From Bacteroidia bacterium (GTDB lineage Bacteria > Bacteroidota > Bacteroidia > CAILMK01 > JBBDIG01): a stretch of 64,000 nucleotides of DNA. The position numbers were made by a program, and so were the translations under genes. The notes beneath the pieces are model-generated. The model was not told the DNA's origin, did no database searches, and saw nothing but the letters and a program-made list of their open reading frames with translations. The stretch is taken from positions 1-64,000 of the forward strand of contig JBBDIG010000028.1 of the NCBI GenBank assembly GCA_040880525.1, written 5' to 3'. Of the stretch, positions 2,166 to 53,400 are shown one piece after another; the stretch's first letter is position 1; each line of letters begins with the position of its first letter.

Positions 2166-3068
2166 ATGGCATCAAAAGCTGATATTGATTACTCGTATAG
2201 CACAATGGATAAAATATGGCGCCTCAGCATTGGAGAGATGGCCGATTTTACAGGCGCAAAATATGACGGGGATTTTTCGCTCAGTCTTGAGGAAGCCCAG
2301 GAAAGGAAACACAGATTTATTGCAGAACAGTTAAATATTACCGCAGGAAGCCGGGTGCTGGACATTGGTTGCGGATGGGGGCCATTCCTCAATTATCTGC
2401 GGAAGATCAAGGCTGAAGGCATTGGCCTCACGCTGTCAGAAGCGCAACATGCGGCTTGTAGGCAGCAGGGGTTTGAAGTTTACATCCAGGATTGCCGGAC
2501 GATAACCTCACAGGATTTCGGGACTTTTGATGCTGTGGCTTCCATCGGCTCGTTCGAGCATTTCTGCTCTGTGGAGGATTACAAGGAGGGCCGGCAGGAT
2601 CAGGTATACCAGGATTTCTTTAAAACTGTAAGCGATCTGTTGCCCATTGGTGGACGATGTTTTGTGCAAACCATGGTGTTTGGAAAGGGAATGATAAGCC
2701 TCGATGAATTTGATATTAATGCAGATAAAAACTCAAAGGAATACCTGATGGCGCTGATCATGAATGAATTTCCAGGATCATGGCTGCCTTATGGGATAGA
2801 GCATATTATCCGTTCAGCCCAGCCCTGTTTTAAACTCGTAACGAGCCATTCGGGCCGGGAAGATTATATAGAAACGATAAAAGTTTGGCGGCAAAGGCTG
2901 AAGTCCTTTGGCTGGAAAAAATACCAGGCTTACCTGTCGTTGGTCCCACAATTTCTCACAGATGCTAAAATGAGGAACCGCCTCGAAAACCTGAAAATTG
3001 CGCCCATCCGTGTTGCTTTCGAGCGCGGCATTTGGGATCACCACCGTATCGTCTTTGAAAAAGTTTAG
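2166..3068 (+). CDS. Cyclopropane-fatty-acyl-phospholipid synthase-like methyltransferase
   Basis: A 300-residue class I SAM-dependent methyltransferase. Motif I is VLDIGCGWGPF (residues 64-74) and the post-motif EHF loop is IGSFEHF, as in the CFA synthase/mycolic acid cyclase family. The C-terminal half keeps the family pattern (SREDYIETIKVWRQRL-like, then the closing FERGIWDHHRIVFEK). CFA synthase transfers a methylene group from SAM to double bonds of membrane lipids. At 300 residues it is shorter than E. coli Cfa, lacking the N-terminal domain. Its last 257 bp plus 240 bp of downstream sequence recur at 6192-6688, beyond an accessory insert. Confidence 0.8.
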   Translation: MASKADIDYSYSTMDKIWRLSIGEMADFTGAKYDGDFSLSLEEAQERKHRFIAEQLNITAGSRVLDIGCGWGPFLNYLRKIKAEGIGLTLSEAQHAACRQQGFEVYIQDCRTITSQDFGTFDAVASIGSFEHFCSVEDYKEGRQDQVYQDFFKTVSDLLPIGGRCFVQTMVFGKGMISLDEFDINADKNSKEYLMALIMNEFPGSWLPYGIEHIIRSAQPCFKLVTSHSGREDYIETIKVWRQRLKSFGWKKYQAYLSLVPQFLTDAKMRNRLENLKIAPIRVAFERGIWDHHRIVFEKV

Positions 3069-3308
3069 CATAGGACAGGCAGGCCGCTTCTTCGGACTGG
3101 AAACTTCGTTGGCAAAGGAAAATTGTAGAGATATTGGGCTGGTAGTAAAAGACAAAATCCAATTAGTTTATTTTATATTTATTGTCATTCCGGAATTTCA
3201 TTTTTCACGAAATATCCGGAATCTCCTGCGCGGGTGCCTGCTGTTGTACATTCTGCCTAAGTTTCCGCAAGGCAGGAGATTCCCGCCTTCGCTGGAAGGA
3301 CAGGACAA
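2812..3308 (+). repeat. Direct repeat copy A: methyltransferase 3' end plus trailer
   Basis: 497 bp repeated at 6192-6688 at a constant offset of 3380 without indels. By eye the coding part differs at two positions, both synonymous. The stretch up to about 3207 is otherwise identical, and about nine differences cluster in the last 100 bp (the hairpin element). Confidence 0.95.
3182..3307. repeat. Composite hairpin element, copy 1
   Basis: Begins TGTCATTCCGGAATTTC and ends close to GGAAGGACAG. The two outer arms are inverted relative to each other: GGAATCTCCTGC near the left is the reverse complement of GCAGGAGATTCC on the right. It resembles palindromic intergenic elements common in Bacteroidota. 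The inner hairpin of the right arm is degraded here but perfect in copy 2. Confidence 0.75.
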
Positions 3309-3310
3309 TT

Positions 3311-3946
3311 CTATGCTATTTGCGGGTAAAGTTTCCTGGTCTCTTCAATTGTAAGTTTTGGAAGCATTATAAAAACGACCAAAAACAAGGAGCTAAATGC
3401 AAATATCACTACACTTAAATAATGATTTCCCTGATTGGCCAGAAATAACATCATCGGCCCCGCTATTAAAATATAAACAATGAATGTCATAATATTGCAG
3501 GCACGTTTAGGCAAGAAAATGTTCACCTTTCTCAGACGCCAATGGTTTGTGGCCGTCACAATAATCATAGCACCGTAAAAACCCAATACATAATATTCTT
3601 TATTGCTTATAAGGGGCAGTACGAAATGCCAGACGGCTGCCAGCGAAAAAGTAAATAACGCGTAAGGCCACGATAAAAAGCTGAGAAGGGCATTTCCAAT
3701 TAATTTGAGCGTTTTTCTTCTTACATTCTTTTCTGTATTATCAATATAAACCTGAAAGCCTTGCTGACCGCCAAACTGCCGGTGCGCCCGAAAGAGGGAT
3801 TCTTCAAAGGATAGCTCAGGATGTTCTTTCTCCATTGTCTCAACTGCTGAAGCAAAGTGGTCAATTAATTCAGCCTGTACGTCATAATATTTAACATCAT
3901 TAAAGCTGAGGTACTTCTTTATGACTTCTAACTTTTCCGGTTCCAT
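3311..3946 (-). CDS. HAAS-type membrane protein paired with PadR
   Basis: A 211-residue protein. The first 75 residues form a soluble helical domain (KYLSFNDVKYYDVQAELIDHFAS...SFEESLFRAHRQFGGQQGF) of the type called HAAS, found encoded next to PadR regulators. Four hydrophobic segments follow. Its start lies inside the end of the padR gene (19-bp overlap), so the two are translationally coupled. In known PadR-HAAS modules the membrane protein is part of a signalling or envelope-stress circuit; its function here is inferred from that arrangement only. It lies in the insert between the two methyltransferase 3'-end copies. Confidence 0.7.
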   Translation of the reverse strand: MEPEKLEVIKKYLSFNDVKYYDVQAELIDHFASAVETMEKEHPELSFEESLFRAHRQFGGQQGFQVYIDNTEKNVRRKTLKLIGNALLSFLSWPYALFTFSLAAVWHFVLPLISNKEYYVLGFYGAMIIVTATNHWRLRKVNIFLPKRACNIMTFIVYILIAGPMMLFLANQGNHYLSVVIFAFSSLFLVVFIMLPKLTIEETRKLYPQIA

Positions 3947-4284
3947 ACTTTATATGGTTTTTTAGGCGAAAGAATTAACTGCACCTGTCCAAGAAATGAC
4001 TGCAACTGCTGCAATCTGGTGGCAGTGGCTTTTTTCCCTTTGGCACTTAGCGAGTAATATTTTCTTTGCCGCCCCGACACCATTCTTGTTTCTGTAGTCA
4101 AAAGCCCCTCCTGCTCCAGCTTATGCAAGGCCGGATATAATGCTCCTTCGGTAATGAGCATTTGCCCGTCACTTATCAACTTAATTTTCTGAATGACCTC
4201 GTAGCCATACACCTGCCCGTTGTCCGATAGCAATTTAAGGATTAAAGTGGCCAGGGTTCCTTTTATAAAAGAGTTGTTTTTCAT
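3928..4284 (-). CDS. PadR family transcriptional regulator
   Basis: A 118-residue winged-helix protein. KGTLATLILKLLSDNGQVYGYEVIQKI is helix 1-2 of PadR and EGALYPALHKLEQEGLLTTE is the recognition helix and wing. The C-terminal helix for dimerisation is short, as in PadR subfamily s2. The ATG at 4284 (MKNNSF) fits the family start better than the ATG at 4296. PadR proteins usually repress an adjacent gene, here probably their own operon with the HAAS protein, and perhaps the neighbouring ABC transporter. Confidence 0.88.
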   Translation of the reverse strand: MKNNSFIKGTLATLILKLLSDNGQVYGYEVIQKIKLISDGQMLITEGALYPALHKLEQEGLLTTETRMVSGRQRKYYSLSAKGKKATATRLQQLQSFLGQVQLILSPKKPYKVWNRKS

Positions 4285-4296
4285 TAATGCAAACAT

Positions 4297-4644
4297 ACCT
4301 AATTATCTTGGGCATGGAATTAATGTAAACTGGATTTTTTTTGACCAAAGCTTGATTATATTCACAATAGTCCTGTAGAAGCTGAAATAGTGGATAGACC
4401 GGTACGCTACCGCTATAGCTCAGCCCGGGATTATGCTGGTATGAAAGGTTTGCTGAAGGTAGAATTGACAGCGTAGGATTGGGGCTGAGGCTTTGTAGAT
4501 CGCCAAACAAGGCACGCCTTACGCTGTCGTTAGACACGTGCATCAGCTAAGTGAAAAGTAAGAATATTTGCTGCTATTGCCAAATTAGCTGCTGCATCAA
4601 CCTGACGTGAAGGTACGGGCAAATGCTCGCACCAGGTGGGGGAT
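4297..4644. other. Gap between padR and the ABC permease
   Basis: 348 bp without a supported gene. The minus strand is open over 4235-4543, but the frame has low-complexity composition, overlaps padR and matches nothing I recognise. It may be a remnant carried with the insert. Confidence 0.35.
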
Positions 4645-5370
4645 TTAGTAGAATTTACTCTTCTTAATAAGAAGAAACGAGGCCATAGGAAAGGCGATCA
4701 AATAAAGCGCAAAAATGAAAAAATCCTCGTAACCATTTGAGGTTTCATTTAAAATGTTTTGAGTTAAGCTAAGAGGTAAATAATTTCTTAAGTCAACTTC
4801 TAATATATTCAAACAAAAGCCTATTAAAAAATGCTCTAAAAAATTATAGATAATAATAAATACTAACCCCAGATAACTCTTGAATAGACTAATAAAAAAA
4901 AGGGCAATGCTACCATAAAGGCTAAATACAAAAAACTGAAAGAGCAAATTGAAATTAAATATATACCAAAAATCAAAGGAATTGCTGAACAGGATTAAAT
5001 TGATAATAAGAACGGTACCAGTAAGACAAAGCAGCAAGGCCAGAACTTTTATTGCAGCATTTACCAATAGCATAAGATGAAGCTGAAGCCTTGAATATCC
5101 TAATACCAGAATTTGCTTAATCATACCATTCCGGAATAATGAGGCCAAATCATAAGCGACCCACATACCCAACAGCACTCCATAAAATGTAAACTTTAAA
5201 GAAGCATTGATACTTCGTTCATAGTTGAAATGTTCTGTAAATTCAGGAGAGCCTTTAATGGAATAGGCATTTGCTAAAATAAACAAAGCCATTAGTAGCC
5301 AGACAATTCCGAAGAAAACGGCATTTCTTGAAACTTTATTTAGAAGCAGGGAAACCCTAAGAAGCCTCAT
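4645..5370 (-). CDS. ABC transporter permease-like membrane protein
   Basis: About 241 residues with six hydrophobic segments, clearly AT-rich compared with flanking genes. The start ATG at 5370 (MRLLRVSLLLNKVSRN) overlaps the upstream ATPase gene by 14 bp, the usual coupling of ATPase and permease. It has no recognised family signature beyond the ABC-2-like topology. The substrate is unknown; small two-component exporters of this shape in Bacteroidota are often linked to peptide or bacteriocin immunity, which is only a guess here. Confidence 0.65.
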   Translation of the reverse strand: MRLLRVSLLLNKVSRNAVFFGIVWLLMALFILANAYSIKGSPEFTEHFNYERSINASLKFTFYGVLLGMWVAYDLASLFRNGMIKQILVLGYSRLQLHLMLLVNAAIKVLALLLCLTGTVLIINLILFSNSFDFWYIFNFNLLFQFFVFSLYGSIALFFISLFKSYLGLVFIIIYNFLEHFLIGFCLNILEVDLRNYLPLSLTQNILNETSNGYEDFFIFALYLIAFPMASFLLIKKSKFY

Positions 5371-5968
5371 GACCCGGAAGTTTATAGCTGTATTTCGCCC
5401 TAACCACACTGTCAGCGGCAGGGTCATTGTAAATAAGAATGCCTCCGTGACTAAGATGATCTTTAAACCAGTTTAATAATGAACCTGCTGAATTTTCATC
5501 TAAGTTTGCAAAAGGTTCATCTAGAAAAACCATCTTCGGCTGCCCCACAAAGGCGGCAATGATGTGTAATTTTTTCTTATTGCCAGCAGATAAACTTCCG
5601 CATTTCTTATTTAATTGAGTACTGAAATTCAATCCTTCCATAAGATTATTTATAAATTGGGTTCTATCATTTTTAATATATCTGGCAATTGCCAAATTAT
5701 CGCTTGCGGTGAGATTGGGTTCAAAATAGTTTTCAATACAAAAACTAATTAGATTCTGGTTTTGAGTTGGCTCCTTTTCATTTTCAATTCTGAACTCGCC
5801 CGTGAAAGGAATAAGTCCGGCCAGGGCTTTAAACAACATTGTTTTGCCAGACCCATTAGCACCGCTAATCAATAAATCTTCACCAGAGGTTAGCCTGATA
5901 TTTAAGCCCACTGGTATTCTTTTACGCTTAACCAGTATCTCTTCTGCATTAATATATAGCGATAGCAT
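5357..5968 (-). CDS. ABC transporter ATP-binding protein (short, atypical switch)
   Basis: A 203-residue nucleotide-binding domain. Walker A is GANGSGKT (residues 36-43), the signature is LSAGN (126-130) and Walker B is MVFLDEP with D150/E151. Two usual residues appear to be missing: the H-switch histidine is replaced by Asn181 (LIYNDP), and no Gln stands at the Q-loop (ISFCIENYFEPN). The protein is short for an exporter ATPase but resembles CcmA-type domains. It is the first gene of a pair with the permease and part of the insert flanked by the 497-bp repeat. Confidence 0.82.
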   Translation of the reverse strand: MLSLYINAEEILVKRKRIPVGLNIRLTSGEDLLISGANGSGKTMLFKALAGLIPFTGEFRIENEKEPTQNQNLISFCIENYFEPNLTASDNLAIARYIKNDRTQFINNLMEGLNFSTQLNKKCGSLSAGNKKKLHIIAAFVGQPKMVFLDEPFANLDENSAGSLLNWFKDHLSHGGILIYNDPAADSVVRAKYSYKLPGHEAS

Positions 5969-6191
5969 TTATTTCACAATTTAATAGAGAGCAATTCATT
6001 GAAGAACTGTCGTTAATTCTGTTAAAAACTTAAAAACTTAATTGAAAAAGTTCCTTCTCTTAGACAAGTGCAAAAATAGCAATTCTACGACAACAGCGAA
6101 GCTTTTCGTGTGATGAAAGGAATATACCCAAAACCAGGGAACGATTTCAGTGAACCCCGAAAAGGTGAAATATTTCTTTTCCATCTAACAT

Positions 6192-6448
6192 GTTCAGCCC
6201 AGCCCTGCTTTAAACTCGTAACGAGCCATTCCGGCCGGGAAGATTATATAGAAACGATAAAAGTTTGGCGGCAAAGGCTGAAGTCCTTTGGCTGGAAAAA
6301 ATACCAGGCTTACCTGTCGTTGGTCCCACAATTTCTCACAGATGCTAAAATGAGGAACCGCCTCGAAAACCTGAAAATTGCGCCCATCCGTGTTGCTTTC
6401 GAGCGCGGCATTTGGGATCACCACCGTATCGTCTTTGAAAAAGTTTAG
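6192..6448 (+). pseudogene. 3' fragment of the methyltransferase gene
   Basis: Encodes only the last 85 or so residues of the methyltransferase at 2166-3068, identical in protein. The reading frame can be followed upstream to an ATG at 6114/6117, but that stretch (GIYPKPGNDFSEPRK...) is unrelated to the enzyme, so the motif I region is absent and the product would not be a methyltransferase. The only differences from the intact copy are synonymous, so the duplication is recent or was kept homogeneous by gene conversion. Confidence 0.9.
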
Positions 6449-6561
6449 CATAGGACAGGCAGGCCGCTTCTTCGGACTGGAAACTTCGTTGGCAAAGGAA
6501 AATTGTAGAGATATTGGGCTGGTAGTAAAAGACAAAATCCAATTAGTTTATTTTATATTTA

Positions 6562-6687
6562 TTGTCATTCCGGAATTTCATTTTTCTCGAAGTATCCGGA
6601 ATCTCCTGCACGGGTGCCTGCTGTTGTACATTCTGCATAAGTTTCCACGGGGCAGGAGATTCCCGCCTTCGCGGGAATGACAGGACA
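6562..6687. repeat. Composite hairpin element, copy 2
   Basis: Better preserved than copy 1. The outer arms TGTCATTCC and GGAATGACA are perfect inverted repeats, as are GGAATCTCCTGC and GCAGGAGATTCC. The left arm has its own inner repeat (ATTCCGGA/TCCGGAAT) and the right arm a perfect hairpin (ATTCCCGC-CTTC-GCGGGAAT). The predicted fold is a three-way cloverleaf. A 19-bp palindrome (ACAACATGA-A-TCATGTTGT, 6685-6703) abuts its right end. Confidence 0.8.
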
Positions 6688-6822
6688 ACATGAATCATGT
6701 TGTTCTGTTCTAATTTTTATGAACTTGTCTAATCGATAAAATATAGTTCTTTAATAACTTCTGAAAATCAAGAATTCGCTCTATTACTTGTAACGTTCCC
6801 TGTGTGAGCACGATAGTAAAAC

Positions 6823-7323
6823 TTAAGCATTTAATGCCTTGTCCTCCTCTTCCCCTTCCTTCACCTCTTCCACGGTAATCGAATTCACATCAATCTTGCT
6901 CACTACAATGGGAGAGCCGGCATCAATGAATCCTCGCAGCGACTTTACTTCCAGCAGGAAATCGTTGATCCGGGCCTTTCCGCCAGGCCTGATGTCTGAA
7001 ACCGCAACGCCTTTGTCGCCTTTCCTGACAATATCTTCTTCCAGCAGGTTCACGCGTCCGGTTATTTTTTCTTTGTTGGAAAAGCTTGTCCACACTCCGC
7101 TCTTGAATCCAATTATAATGGCCGTAAGTGAAATGATCAAACCTACCGTACTCACTGCAATGCCCCATGTAGATCCATAATTGGCAAATACCTGCACAAT
7201 GCCCAGCACCATCAGCACCAACCCGATGATGCCAACGAAGGTGGTACCGGGAACGAAGAATACCTCGATTAGAATGAGGGCCAGCCCCATTATGAGGAGT
7301 GTAAGGACGAGAAAAAGTTCCAT
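6823..7323 (-). CDS. NfeD family protein, short form
   Basis: A 166-residue membrane protein of the NfeD class that lacks the ClpP-like protease domain. Three or four transmembrane segments fill residues 1-80, and an OB-fold domain follows (GDKGVAVSDIRPGGKARINDFLLEV...GSPIVVSKID). Short NfeD proteins usually work with flotillin/SPFH proteins in membrane microdomains, but no SPFH gene lies nearby in this window. A long NfeD with the protease domain is encoded at 57923-59344, and its OB-fold carries the same VSDxRPGGK motif. Confidence 0.85.
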   Translation of the reverse strand: MELFLVLTLLIMGLALILIEVFFVPGTTFVGIIGLVLMVLGIVQVFANYGSTWGIAVSTVGLIISLTAIIIGFKSGVWTSFSNKEKITGRVNLLEEDIVRKGDKGVAVSDIRPGGKARINDFLLEVKSLRGFIDAGSPIVVSKIDVNSITVEEVKEGEEEDKALNA

Positions 7324-7533: not shown

Positions 7534-9282
7534 TCACTCGCGCAACGGCAGCAATGCATCTGTAATAAGCCGGTACACAGGGTAGCGATTATGGCTCGGT
7601 TCATATAATTCTGATTGTTGGTAAATGAAATACCATTGCGCCCACGGGCTTTTGGCAAACATGGAATCCTGTTCCTTCCGCTGCTCAAATTCACGCTTCA
7701 GTGTTGCATTCTGTTGTAACATCCGGTGAGCGGTTTCATCAAAAATGTATGGCGAAAAATATTCCTTCTGGGAAAGGACGGCATCGAAAAAATTCCAGGC
7801 AAAATAGCTGTCCGGGGCGCGTGGTTCCAGCGTCTCCACGATGAAACGGTTGGCGGGCTGGTTTACATACGCCACATAATCGCCCTGATAAAACGTGATT
7901 TCCCCCGTATGGACGGAGGTCTCGATATCATAATTCAGATAATGTCCTTCGTAAGGGCGGGGTCGCGTATCATAGCGCGTGATCCGATAGTACTCCACTT
8001 CCAGCACCGTGTCCCGGAGCAACTGCTTGAGGCGGATGCCGCTGATCATCAGCCGCTCTGTTACCTCCTGCCAGGCCTGCGGAATGAGATAGGCCACCGG
8101 GGCCGTGACTGAATCCATGGATTTGTAGCTATTATAAAAAGGAATATTCCGCTGATAAGGACGCTCCCGGTCGTATGATTCCACCTTTGTTCCCGTCACC
8201 TTGCTTTCTTTCCATGTGGCCTCGTAGCCCTGGAAAATGATGTCCTTCTTTTGTGATGTATCCAGCTCCCACCGGAGGGGAAAATTCTTTTGGCGGGATG
8301 ACAGCAGATCGGCCTTTGCCTTCAGCAAGCCGATTTCCTTGTGGTTGATGTTCATCTTTTCCAGCAGACTTTCAAGGAAATGATAGGTTCCTTCCACCCG
8401 TTCCTTGTAGGGTTTCCACATGTGGGCCTCGGACGTGAAACCGATGCAGTTGAAGAGCGCAGCATAGCCCGTTGAGTATCGTGGTGTTTCCAGGTAGGCC
8501 ACCAGCCCTGAATCCGGAATTGTGGCCAGCGTATTTACGTAAGGCGTCATCGGAAAGCCCTTTTGCGCCATCCGTTTATAAAGCGCAGGCTCAAGATCCT
8601 TTTCCAGGTATGTGGCCAGCACCGGGTGTAGTTTGTCCTTTTGCGTACTGATGAGCGTCATCACGTGCTGGTAATCCGCGCCATTGGAGGTGTGCGTATC
8701 TACGAAAATATCCGGTTTCCAATCATCAAATATTTCTGCAAAGCTGCGGGCATTGCGGCTGTCAGCTTTGATGAAATCGCGGTTGAGGTCCAGATTGCGG
8801 GCATTGCCTCTGAAGCCATACTCCTTTGGACCCACCTGGTTGGCCCGGCTGCAGCAACCTCGGTTCAGCGCCCCGCCAATATTATAAAAGGGAATAATGC
8901 ACACCACCACATTTTGCAGAAGCCGCTGCATTTCCTTCTTTTCCATCAGGTCGCGGGCCAGCATCATAGAAGCATCGACACCGCAGGGTTCACCGGGATG
9001 GATGGCATTGTTTACCAGCAAAATGCGCCTGCCGCTTTCCTCTATTTTCTGCGGATTAAATTCGCCATCGCTGGAAATAACAACGAGGTGAAGCGGCCTT
9101 CCTACGTCCGTTGGGCCATATTCCAGGAGTTTTATTTCGCTGTAGGTAGAGTCGAGTTGCCGGTAGTATGATATGGCTTCGTCATACGTAGCGCTTTCGA
9201 GGCCGTTGCTTTTCTCGAAAGGCGTGGTAGAGTCAATACTTCCGCTAAGGACGAGGAGAAGTGAAAAGAGTAATATGCGCAT
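7534..9282 (-). CDS. M14 family zinc carboxypeptidase, exported
   Basis: A 582-residue protein with a short N-terminal hydrophobic signal (MRILLFSLLLVLSGS). The zinc ligands are visible as HPGE (His95, Glu98) and a third His in FVDTHTSNGADYQH. The Arg/Asn region DLNRDFIK and the likely catalytic Glu in FTSEAHMW complete the M14 active site. M14 enzymes remove C-terminal residues from peptides; the family in Bacteroidota is periplasmic or secreted. The C-terminal 200 residues form a beta-rich extension of unknown role. There is no T9SS tail, so it is probably periplasmic. Confidence 0.88.
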   Translation of the reverse strand: MRILLFSLLLVLSGSIDSTTPFEKSNGLESATYDEAISYYRQLDSTYSEIKLLEYGPTDVGRPLHLVVISSDGEFNPQKIEESGRRILLVNNAIHPGEPCGVDASMMLARDLMEKKEMQRLLQNVVVCIIPFYNIGGALNRGCCSRANQVGPKEYGFRGNARNLDLNRDFIKADSRNARSFAEIFDDWKPDIFVDTHTSNGADYQHVMTLISTQKDKLHPVLATYLEKDLEPALYKRMAQKGFPMTPYVNTLATIPDSGLVAYLETPRYSTGYAALFNCIGFTSEAHMWKPYKERVEGTYHFLESLLEKMNINHKEIGLLKAKADLLSSRQKNFPLRWELDTSQKKDIIFQGYEATWKESKVTGTKVESYDRERPYQRNIPFYNSYKSMDSVTAPVAYLIPQAWQEVTERLMISGIRLKQLLRDTVLEVEYYRITRYDTRPRPYEGHYLNYDIETSVHTGEITFYQGDYVAYVNQPANRFIVETLEPRAPDSYFAWNFFDAVLSQKEYFSPYIFDETAHRMLQQNATLKREFEQRKEQDSMFAKSPWAQWYFIYQQSELYEPSHNRYPVYRLITDALLPLRE

Positions 9283-9494
9283 AAGCCGGTTTTAATTTTA
9301 AGGAGCGAAAATTACCATAGTTACTGAGATGGGGAAGCTTTCAGCGTAATGAATACATTAATATTGTATTTTAAATCTTAAAGTTTTTTCAAGAAATGAT
9401 TGAAATTTTAAGAAAAACCTTTTGAAACCTTTTGTTCCAAACTCAGAGCTACCGGACACCGCTCAATTTTCTTATCGTATAATCTTGGTTTAAT

Positions 9495-50466: not shown

Positions 50467-53400
50467 ATGAAAAAATCATTTACTTTTCAAAGTTGGCTTC
50501 TAACATTTCTCTTGCTGCTTGGCAGTTCGGGAATTGTGAACGCCCAGATGTCCGGAACGTATACCATTGATCCGAATGGGAGCGGTTCGAGTAACTACAC
50601 GACTTTTGATGATGCAGTGGACGACCTGGAGAGCTTCGGAGTTTCAGGTCCGGTAATCTTTCAAGCCTCGGCTGACTCATTCAATGAGATGATCACGATC
50701 ACTAAAATCACAGGGGCCTCGGCTACAAACACAATCACGTTTGAGGGTGCAGGAATGTACTCCACGGTATTGTGGTATTCAACGGCCACTACAACTGTTT
50801 ATTTAACGGATACGGCCGGGTATATCACATTCCGTGATATGACCATAGACGATCCAAATACCGTTGGTACCGCTATTCATATTGACAGAGCAAGCCATCA
50901 CATTAAAGTAGAAAATTGCTACCTCACGACATTTATGGGAACAGGAGGTAACATTCTTGTTTATTTTAATAATGGGGCGCATAATAATACTTTTACCAAT
51001 AACGTGATGAAGGGCGGGTACTACAGCGTATATGCCAATTATAGCAGTGGTGGTGACAGCAATTCCTTCATTGGGAATGACATTTCCGAATATTATTCCT
51101 ACGGTTTCTATTATTGGTATCAACGGAATTATGAACTGAAGGATAACATTCTTCATAGCCCTGGGTATCAGTATGCTTACGCATTTGCTCCGTATTATTG
51201 TCAGAATTTCTTGCTTGAAGGTAATACCGCAATTGGTAATTATGCTGGTATCCTGATGCAGTATGCTGATAATTATCAAATTATCGAAAATCGGTTGTTG
51301 GATTGCGGGGTATATGGCCTGTATATCTTTAACGGGAATGCTACTTCAACAGATACCAGCTATGTAACCAATAACATGATTTCATCCACGCAACCAGGGT
51401 ATGTAATATACAATTACCAGGTGAACCGGACCTTCTATTATCATAACAGCTTATATGGTAGTAATCCCTACTACGGCCTTATGTTTCAACAAGGAGGAAG
51501 TAACCATTTTGTCAATAATTCTGCTGAGATCACAGCTCAGTACTATGGAATTTATGTTAATGGTACTCCGTTCTCCAGAATGGAATATAACAATCTCTAT
51601 ATTTCAGGAACCAATGGCTATGCATACTGGAACGCTCTATATGGTAGCTTAGCTGCTTTGCAGGCAGGAACCGGCCTTAATCAGAACACCATCAGCGTAG
51701 ATCCTGAGTATGTGAGCATAACGGATCTGCATGCTGACGGGCAACTGCTCAATAATGAAGGGATCGAACTGTCAGCGGTTCCATTTGATATAGATGGAGA
51801 TCCACGCCCATACTCGCCTGATACTTTGGTGGATATTGGAGCTGATGAAATTTATGTTGGTGACTATGATCTGGACGTTGAAACGCTAGACAATCCAAAA
51901 TCACTGGTACTGAATGGAAATAACGTGGTAGAAGCCACTTTCCGGAATAAAGGAAAAATGGCTTTATCCAGTACGGATGTTAAAGTGGCTTATTCCTATG
52001 ATGGCGGTACCAACTGGACAGAAGATACGCTGGTGATCACATCTCTTGTACCGGGGGCGAGGCAATCTTTTACCTTTACACGGCCTTTTACGATCAGCAC
52101 TTCTGCTACCTACACAGTTTGTGTAAGGATCACTCAACAGATAAGTGGCGATCCTGATAACAGCGATCAGAAATGCATTGATGTTTGTGATGGTGTCTCC
52201 GGAACTATAGTGGTTGATGCAACTGGGAACGGGGATCATACCACTATCAATGGAGCCCTGGATGAACTCAAATGCGGTTTGATCGGACCTGTAACGATCC
52301 AGATCAGGCCCGGAACCTATACCGAAACCATAAAGATTGATCCAATTTTTGGTCTTTCTTCCACCAATACGGTGACTATTGAAGGTGCAGGCAAAGACAG
52401 TGTCTTTATTGAGCAGAGTGGTGGCGCGGCTGCCGTAACACTGGATGGCGTATCCTACATCACAATTCAGGATGTAAGTATTGAAGCGTCAACCAATTCA
52501 ACCGGTGTTAAGATTACCGGTGGTTCTGCTAACAATACAATAAAGGATAATATTATTGATGTAGGGTCTTCTACCAGCACAACTTCGGTTGGAATAGTGA
52601 TCGGTAATTCCTATAACTCAGGGACAACCGATAATACATATAACCTAATACAGAATAATGAAGTCTATGGCGGATATATGGGCATTACCTGCGCAGGTGC
52701 TTCCAACGCATCCAACGGCCGTGTAAAGGGTAATCGCTTTATAGGAAATATAGTTGATGACCACTACTTCTATGGTATGTACTTGTGGTACAATCAGGAT
52801 ATAGAAGTAATTGGAAACAAACTGCTTGGTGCAACTATAGCGACCAGCGGGTATGGGATGTATGCCTTTTACAACAATAATTCTAAGTACAACGGAAACA
52901 CGATCAGCGGGTATAACTATTCTCCCTGGATGTGGTACTATGAGAATTATATTAATTCTACTTCCACAGATACTACCTGGGCAGTAAATAATATGTTAGG
53001 CGGCAATATGACTAATACGTATGGCTACACCCTTTACGCAATTTACGCGACAAAGGTGAAGTTTTATCATAACAGCCTGTTGCATTTGCCGGGTTCTTAT
53101 CATGCCTTTATGATCCAATATGGAAGCTGGGATATGCGGAATAATAATTTCAGCCATGCTTCTGCCTCTGCTGCGAATTATTATACCTTTTACTTTTATA
53201 ATCCCACTTGGATAGCGCTTGATTACAACAACTATGAGAGCCTGTCATCTACTGCCATTTATTACAATGGAGCTACATACCAGGGATTGGCGGACTGGCA
53301 AACCGGGCAGCCGCAGTATAACCAAAACTCTACTGCTGAGGATGCCAATTACAATAGCACCAGTGATCTTCATCTTGCTTTCGGCAAGCCATTCCCTACA

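Follow-up and report, generated by a model that had tools for sequence, protein, structure and literature searches.

How did the 3′ end of a methyltransferase gene come to stand twice on the same strand, with regulatory and transport genes between the two copies? The window analysed here is the whole stretch of 64,000 nucleotides, positions 1-64000 of contig C28 in a draft genome of 3.80 Mb and 60 contigs. An intact CMAS/Cfa-type SAM methyltransferase gene lies at 2166-3068 (plus strand; Pfam CMAS, E 3e-34), and its full-length homologues reach up to 78% amino acid identity. This gene is the source of the duplicated end. Its last 257 bp, stop codon included, and a further 240 bp past the stop codon make up a 497-bp block at 2812-3308, which returns as a direct repeat at 6192-6688, an offset of 3380 bp. 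The original prediction gave this repeat exactly and ascribed it to recombination that left the gene intact, either a single crossover with a circle carrying the gene end or site-specific integration behind the gene. Recombination and the intact gene are borne out; the two routes have to be weighed separately.

A gene end joined to a dispersed palindrome

Chance origin of a 497-bp match is excluded (E 2e-246 in a search of the genome). The left copy (L) and the right copy (R) are equal at 486 of 497 positions, and the 11 mismatches are clustered: two in the first 41 bp, none in the following 354, and nine in the final 102, where they span 3207 to 3298. If 11 differences were placed at random, an identical run of 354 bases would have a probability of about 1e-5. 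The coding differences are TGT/TGC at 2828 and TCG/TCC at 2852, both at third positions and both synonymous, as had been reported.

Past the stop codon, L (2812-3308, plus strand) runs through a 49-bp trailer, a 63-bp stretch termed t63 (3118-3180, plus strand) and a palindromic element, REP_L (3181-3308, plus strand). R (6192-6688, plus strand) consists of an orphan methyltransferase 3′ shard, t63 and a second palindrome of the same family, REP_R (6561-6688, plus strand). The block had been described as a gene end plus its trailer. The gene end stands, but the trailer is not a plain one, as the last 128 bp of the block are a dispersed REP/MITE-type palindrome with a dRS3-like end. Nearly all matches to the block on other contigs of the genome fall within block positions 366-496. 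The element, about 122-128 bp long, starts with TGTCATTCC, ends with GGAATGACA and forms an inner hairpin at either end. With a covariance model, about 20 copies were located in the genome (26 matches, some being both strands of one site), and the family was also detected in three other genomes (G004, G010 and G012). The dRS3-like terminal hairpin is intact in REP_R, with an exact ATTCCC-N8-GGGAAT core at 6659-6678, and is broken in REP_L at 3293 and 3298. To the left of the REP, t63 is common only to contig C4, where 12 of its 63 positions differ.

The right end of the block coincides with the end of the REP. The left junction of R (6191/6192) is nonhomologous and lies not at a REP but at an arbitrary point inside coding sequence. 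A check of this junction for microhomology gave nothing clear, the sequence upstream of 6192 holds no remnant of the 5′ part of the gene, and a search of the genome with the flanks of R gave no further copies apart from the block. Transposition of the block itself by a RAYT transposase was also considered. IS200/IS605 target recognition would need matching bases to the left of both copies; the bases left of L and R do not match each other, and this candidate was therefore rejected.

Beyond R lies an intrinsic-terminator-like hairpin of 14 pairs (6679-6709, plus strand), its 5′ arm overlapping the end of REP_R, and then an NfeD-family gene (6823-7323, minus strand; Pfam). R thus retains the hairpin between shard and nfeD, and in L its arm is cut off at the neighbouring ORF. 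Among the genomes and GTDB contigs searched, which included no relative of the same genus or family, an empty site was not seen. The CMAS and NfeD loci of these more distant relatives have no neighbours in common with the window, and Rfam gave a sub-threshold match only. In a Cyclobacterium MAG (L050), an intact CMAS-type gene at 2520-3428 is followed 6 kb downstream by a decayed, internally deleted second copy at 9258-9492. This duplicated gene end was dropped as a parallel case because it is a decaying paralogue.

The segment between the copies

The genes between the copies had been taken as one cargo of PadR/HAAS and ABC genes. The segment is not one element. It is made of two minus-strand gene pairs, joined at the decayed 3′ end of a RAYT gene and its REP. 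The left pair is a membrane-type ORF (3311-3946) and a PadR-family regulator (3928-4296; Pfam PadR, E 8e-20). A location beside a PadR gene is typical for a HAAS-type ORF; the HAAS label itself found no support in Pfam or NCBIfam, and the PadR and ABC labels are both backed by Pfam. The membrane-type ORF matches no family, is single-copy in the genome, and has no homologue in 30 relatives and none in viral contigs. Its 3′ end (3309-3339, read on the plus strand) has an orphan 31-bp copy, with one mismatch, directly after a REP at C29:28039-28069, and a full second copy of the ORF is absent from the genome. The right pair is a putative ABC permease (4645-5427), which matches no family and for which neither 60 relatives nor plasmids gave a homologue, and an ABC transporter ATP-binding protein (5357-5968; Pfam ABC_tran, E 2e-19). 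GC content is 38% in the segment and 45% in the window. It is lowest in the permease (34%) and the ATPase (38%) and reaches 39-43% in the PadR pair.

Between the pairs, the decayed RAYT 3′ end (...YIHNSPVEAEIVDRP...YSSARDYAGMKGLLKVELTA*) occupies 4348-4476 on the plus strand and was recognised by tblastn with a RAYT protein of contig C48 (E 6e-8). At the DNA level it matches RAYT-containing stretches of C48 and C15, and also C14 and C4. Directly after this scar comes a palindrome of RAYT type, REP′ (4483-4541, plus strand; ..GGCACGCCTTACGCTGTCGTTAGACACGTG). A further dispersed repeat at 4552-4643, between the scar and the permease gene, recurs on C49 and C34, with shorter matches on C45, C40 and C21. 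The genome holds eight matches to the RAYT domain PF01797. In the stretches read, no copy of the TGTCATTCC palindrome was found directly flanking a RAYT gene; the separate REP′ family does flank the RAYT genes on C48. The stretch C19:53000-56500 (L168) has a RAYT-type match too, together with a pair of diverged local duplications, one of 713 bp at 87% identity and the other of 691 bp at 75%.

The original prediction saw no integrase, transposase or terminal repeat here. For the integrase this holds: a Pfam scan of window ORFs revealed neither an integrase nor a phage gene, with most ORFs longer than about 130 aa in the first 50 kb and a single one near 57 kb covered (50.5-57 and 58-64 kb lay outside the scan), and the segment itself has no integrase. 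The RAYT remnant and the REPs at the block ends overturn the other two parts of the statement.

Age of the borders and similar duplications

Contig C4 is collinear with the window, in the same orientation, over 3118-3326 (t63 and REP) and then 4435-4541 (RAYT 3′ end and REP′). Divergence from the window is similar in both parts, 19% in t63 and 22% in the RAYT scar. No sequence matching the PadR pair occurs on C4 between the REP and the RAYT 3′ end, and a weak match to window 4315-4364 lies in order in between (E 0.28). In the simplest reading of this alignment, C4 would be an old copy of the left-boundary arrangement that lost the PadR pair; a possible alternative is that the pair was inserted in the window instead. 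Because C4 has the left boundary and the RAYT scar in diverged but collinear form, the boundary probably predates the right shard, a judgement drawn from few loci. The C4 arrangement and the 31-bp trace on C29 together suggest an old left boundary and a right shard that arrived later. The overlap of the terminator with the end of REP_R could mean that the R side (REP, terminator, nfeD) was the gene's original neighbour. This argument for L as the derived junction is weakened, as the right flank of C4 resembles L and not R.

The three copies can also be compared along their length. Within the left 89 bp (3118-3206) L and R have no differences, and C4 departs from either of them at 13 positions. 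Within the right 102 bp the differences number 9 between L and R, 10 between L and C4 and 13 between R and C4 (site patterns 6 + 3 + 7), and the left and right parts are distinct when L-R is set against L-C4 differences (Fisher P 0.004). Measured against REP_L, the right part of REP_R is thus of about the same age as the C4 element, and the identical left part was homogenised recently. Right halves whose mutual divergence matches their distance from a third copy, next to an identical interior, point to repeats already present as the anchors of recombination or gene conversion. Such a profile would be expected from recombination joining two pre-existing repeats, or from interior conversion of an older duplicate. 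Under fresh copying, the position of the two left-end differences has a probability of about 0.01, and these differences seem to favour a converted older duplicate, or a mixture, over fresh copying.

Two other duplications in the genome have the same layout. A 1619-bp block containing genes for a RAYT and a PKD-domain protein stands twice on C29 (948-2566 and 3933-5551; L165), 2985 bp apart and bounded at both ends by REPs, which are two different palindromes. Its seven differences all lie at most 69 bp from the ends, and the interior 1522 bp are identical. On C48, a tandem RAYT gene unit of 622 bp per copy (51072-51693 and 51699-52320; L163) has REPs at its borders and four differences, all in the final 72 bp, beside a REP. 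An identical tract with diverged ends, as in gene conversion between duplicates, is common to the 497-bp block and both of these. A frame-broken ClpB 3′ end follows right after the REP of the C29 block (about 2585-2810); this C-terminal fragment continues in frame into a Por_Secre_tail ORF to which it is unrelated. REP-ended local duplications and REP-side gene-end shards recur in this genome, the latter being the ClpB end, the 31-bp trace on C29 and the RAYT 3′ end of the window itself. The assembly consensus could add to the identical interiors of the duplications, where differences distant from unique flanks may be collapsed.

Candidate mechanisms and known systems

Because both copies end in the same dispersed palindrome, ordinary recombination between repeats is the likeliest origin, rather than a new mobile element. 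That R, about 3.4 kb downstream, arose secondarily from the methyltransferase gene as a shard without function is a reading we hold with confidence and doubt in equal measure. We are just as evenly divided on the proposal that homologous recombination anchored on the REP_R-type repeat wrote the shard beside REP_R. At the start, two REPs of like orientation would have been present, REP_L downstream of the methyltransferase gene and REP_R in the gap separating the ABC genes from nfeD, with the PadR/RAYT-scar segment presumably already in place. After a break or stalled fork at one of these REPs, one side may have paired with the other, and copying would have run leftward from the REP via t63 and the trailer into the gene, to stop at the illegitimate junction 6191/6192. 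By an alternative route, the interior of an older duplicate would have been overwritten by gene conversion. The observations behind the proposal are that the block ends where the REP ends, that the right halves of the REPs are diverged and the sequence to their left nearly identical, that the C29 and C48 duplications have a like profile, and that other gene-end shards lie beside REPs. Against it, the left junction has no REP, and the order and direction of events rest on a single old copy, C4.

Integration of a circle is unlikely, though it deserves serious consideration. One crossover of a circle, or of re-circularised linear DNA, with the gene 3′ end, t63 and the REP would have inserted the 3.4-kb segment, and conversion would have made the interior identical. 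An intact gene, a direct repeat at both borders, the low GC content of the segment, the rarity of its proteins in relatives, and a terminator kept by R and truncated in L all suit this route. In E. coli experiments such products were obtained, with duplicated gene ends of 109-950 bp, and were read as single crossovers of shortened, re-circularised molecules (PMC3240628). The route is set back by C4, which has the left border with its RAYT scar as an old arrangement, and by the other REP-bounded duplications, whose like profile requires no incoming circle; allelic REPs would moreover need a divergence equal to that of paralogous ones. Since the block ends at an independently diverged palindrome and C4 has the old collinear left boundary, the circle of the original prediction is possible but becomes the second choice.

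It is improbable that the pattern is an effect of assembly, with the repeat interior collapsed to a consensus, or the 3380-bp segment being a separate circle or other locus joined via the 354-bp identical stretch. The genome is a draft of 60 contigs, and in all three duplications no difference is more than about 100 bp away from an edge, a distribution that consensus building in repeats would yield as well. The two outer junctions are nevertheless distinct sequences, as are the two REP variants, and the 1619-bp repeat is placed within one contig, so that repeats of this kind seem to be within reach of the assembly. Slightly less probable again is an ancient tandem duplication in which the second copy of the methyltransferase gene was stripped of its 5′ part, with the cargo inserted or moved into the space between the copies. 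Duplicates of such a gene do occur, as in the Cyclobacterium MAG, but the 5′ part has left no trace upstream of 6192, and a shard nearly identical over 395 bp would need later conversion. Site-specific integration at the gene 3′ end, by an integrative element or a phage of the dRS3-targeting type, would suit the insertion behind the gene and the ATTCCC-N8-GGGAAT of REP_R, a pattern family targeted by Neisseria filamentous phage (PMC3898611), but is very improbable because no integrase or phage gene was found among the ORFs scanned and the long repeat of uneven identity is no short att core, running 369 bp beyond the REP into the gene to an arbitrary end.

Repeat-anchored recombination, our preferred reading, has a wider implication. 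Only tentatively, and with more doubt than belief, do we suggest that gene-end palindromes in this lineage repeatedly anchor the copying of neighbours' 3′ ends to other repeat sites, leaving shards and local duplications with converted interiors. If this genome-wide pattern is true, REP-type palindromes in Bacteroidota shape genes as well as intergenic space. The case shows how repeated gene ends around a "cargo" can pass for scars of integration although the border is accounted for by a dispersed repeat.

Several known systems resemble this locus. With REP/BIME and RAYT-REP systems (PMC2817692) it shares intergenic palindromes, several RAYT genes, and REPs located next to RAYTs and at duplication borders. 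Unlike them, the block's element is a longer, MITE-like palindrome with no GTAG-type tag, and the segment has a RAYT 3′ remnant only. Neisseria dRS3 (ATTCCC-N8-GGGAAT) occurs in almost 700 copies, forms NIME arrays and is targeted by filamentous phage; the repeats were proposed to flank exchanged genes, and a 28-bp gene 3′-end fragment is reported from within such an array (PMC3898611). The terminal hairpin of REP_R fits this pattern, and here too a gene 3′-end fragment lies beside a repeat, but the genome belongs to another phylum, has about 20 copies, and no prophage integrase was found. At T6SS loci, orphan genes and a shifted effector 3′ end were proposed to arise via homology-facilitated illegitimate recombination (PMC5361080). 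These displaced T6SS/Rhs 3′ ends and the E. coli products share with our locus one homologous border, one illegitimate border and an orphan 3′ end downstream. The differences are that the homologous border here is a dispersed repeat, and that the shard is the same gene's own end rather than an alternative tip of greater age. The parts are all of known kinds, namely REP/MITE palindromes, RAYTs, dRS3-like hairpins and gene conversion between duplicates; what is new is this instance itself, which may belong to a genome-wide tendency for gene 3′ ends to be copied to sites next to palindromes.
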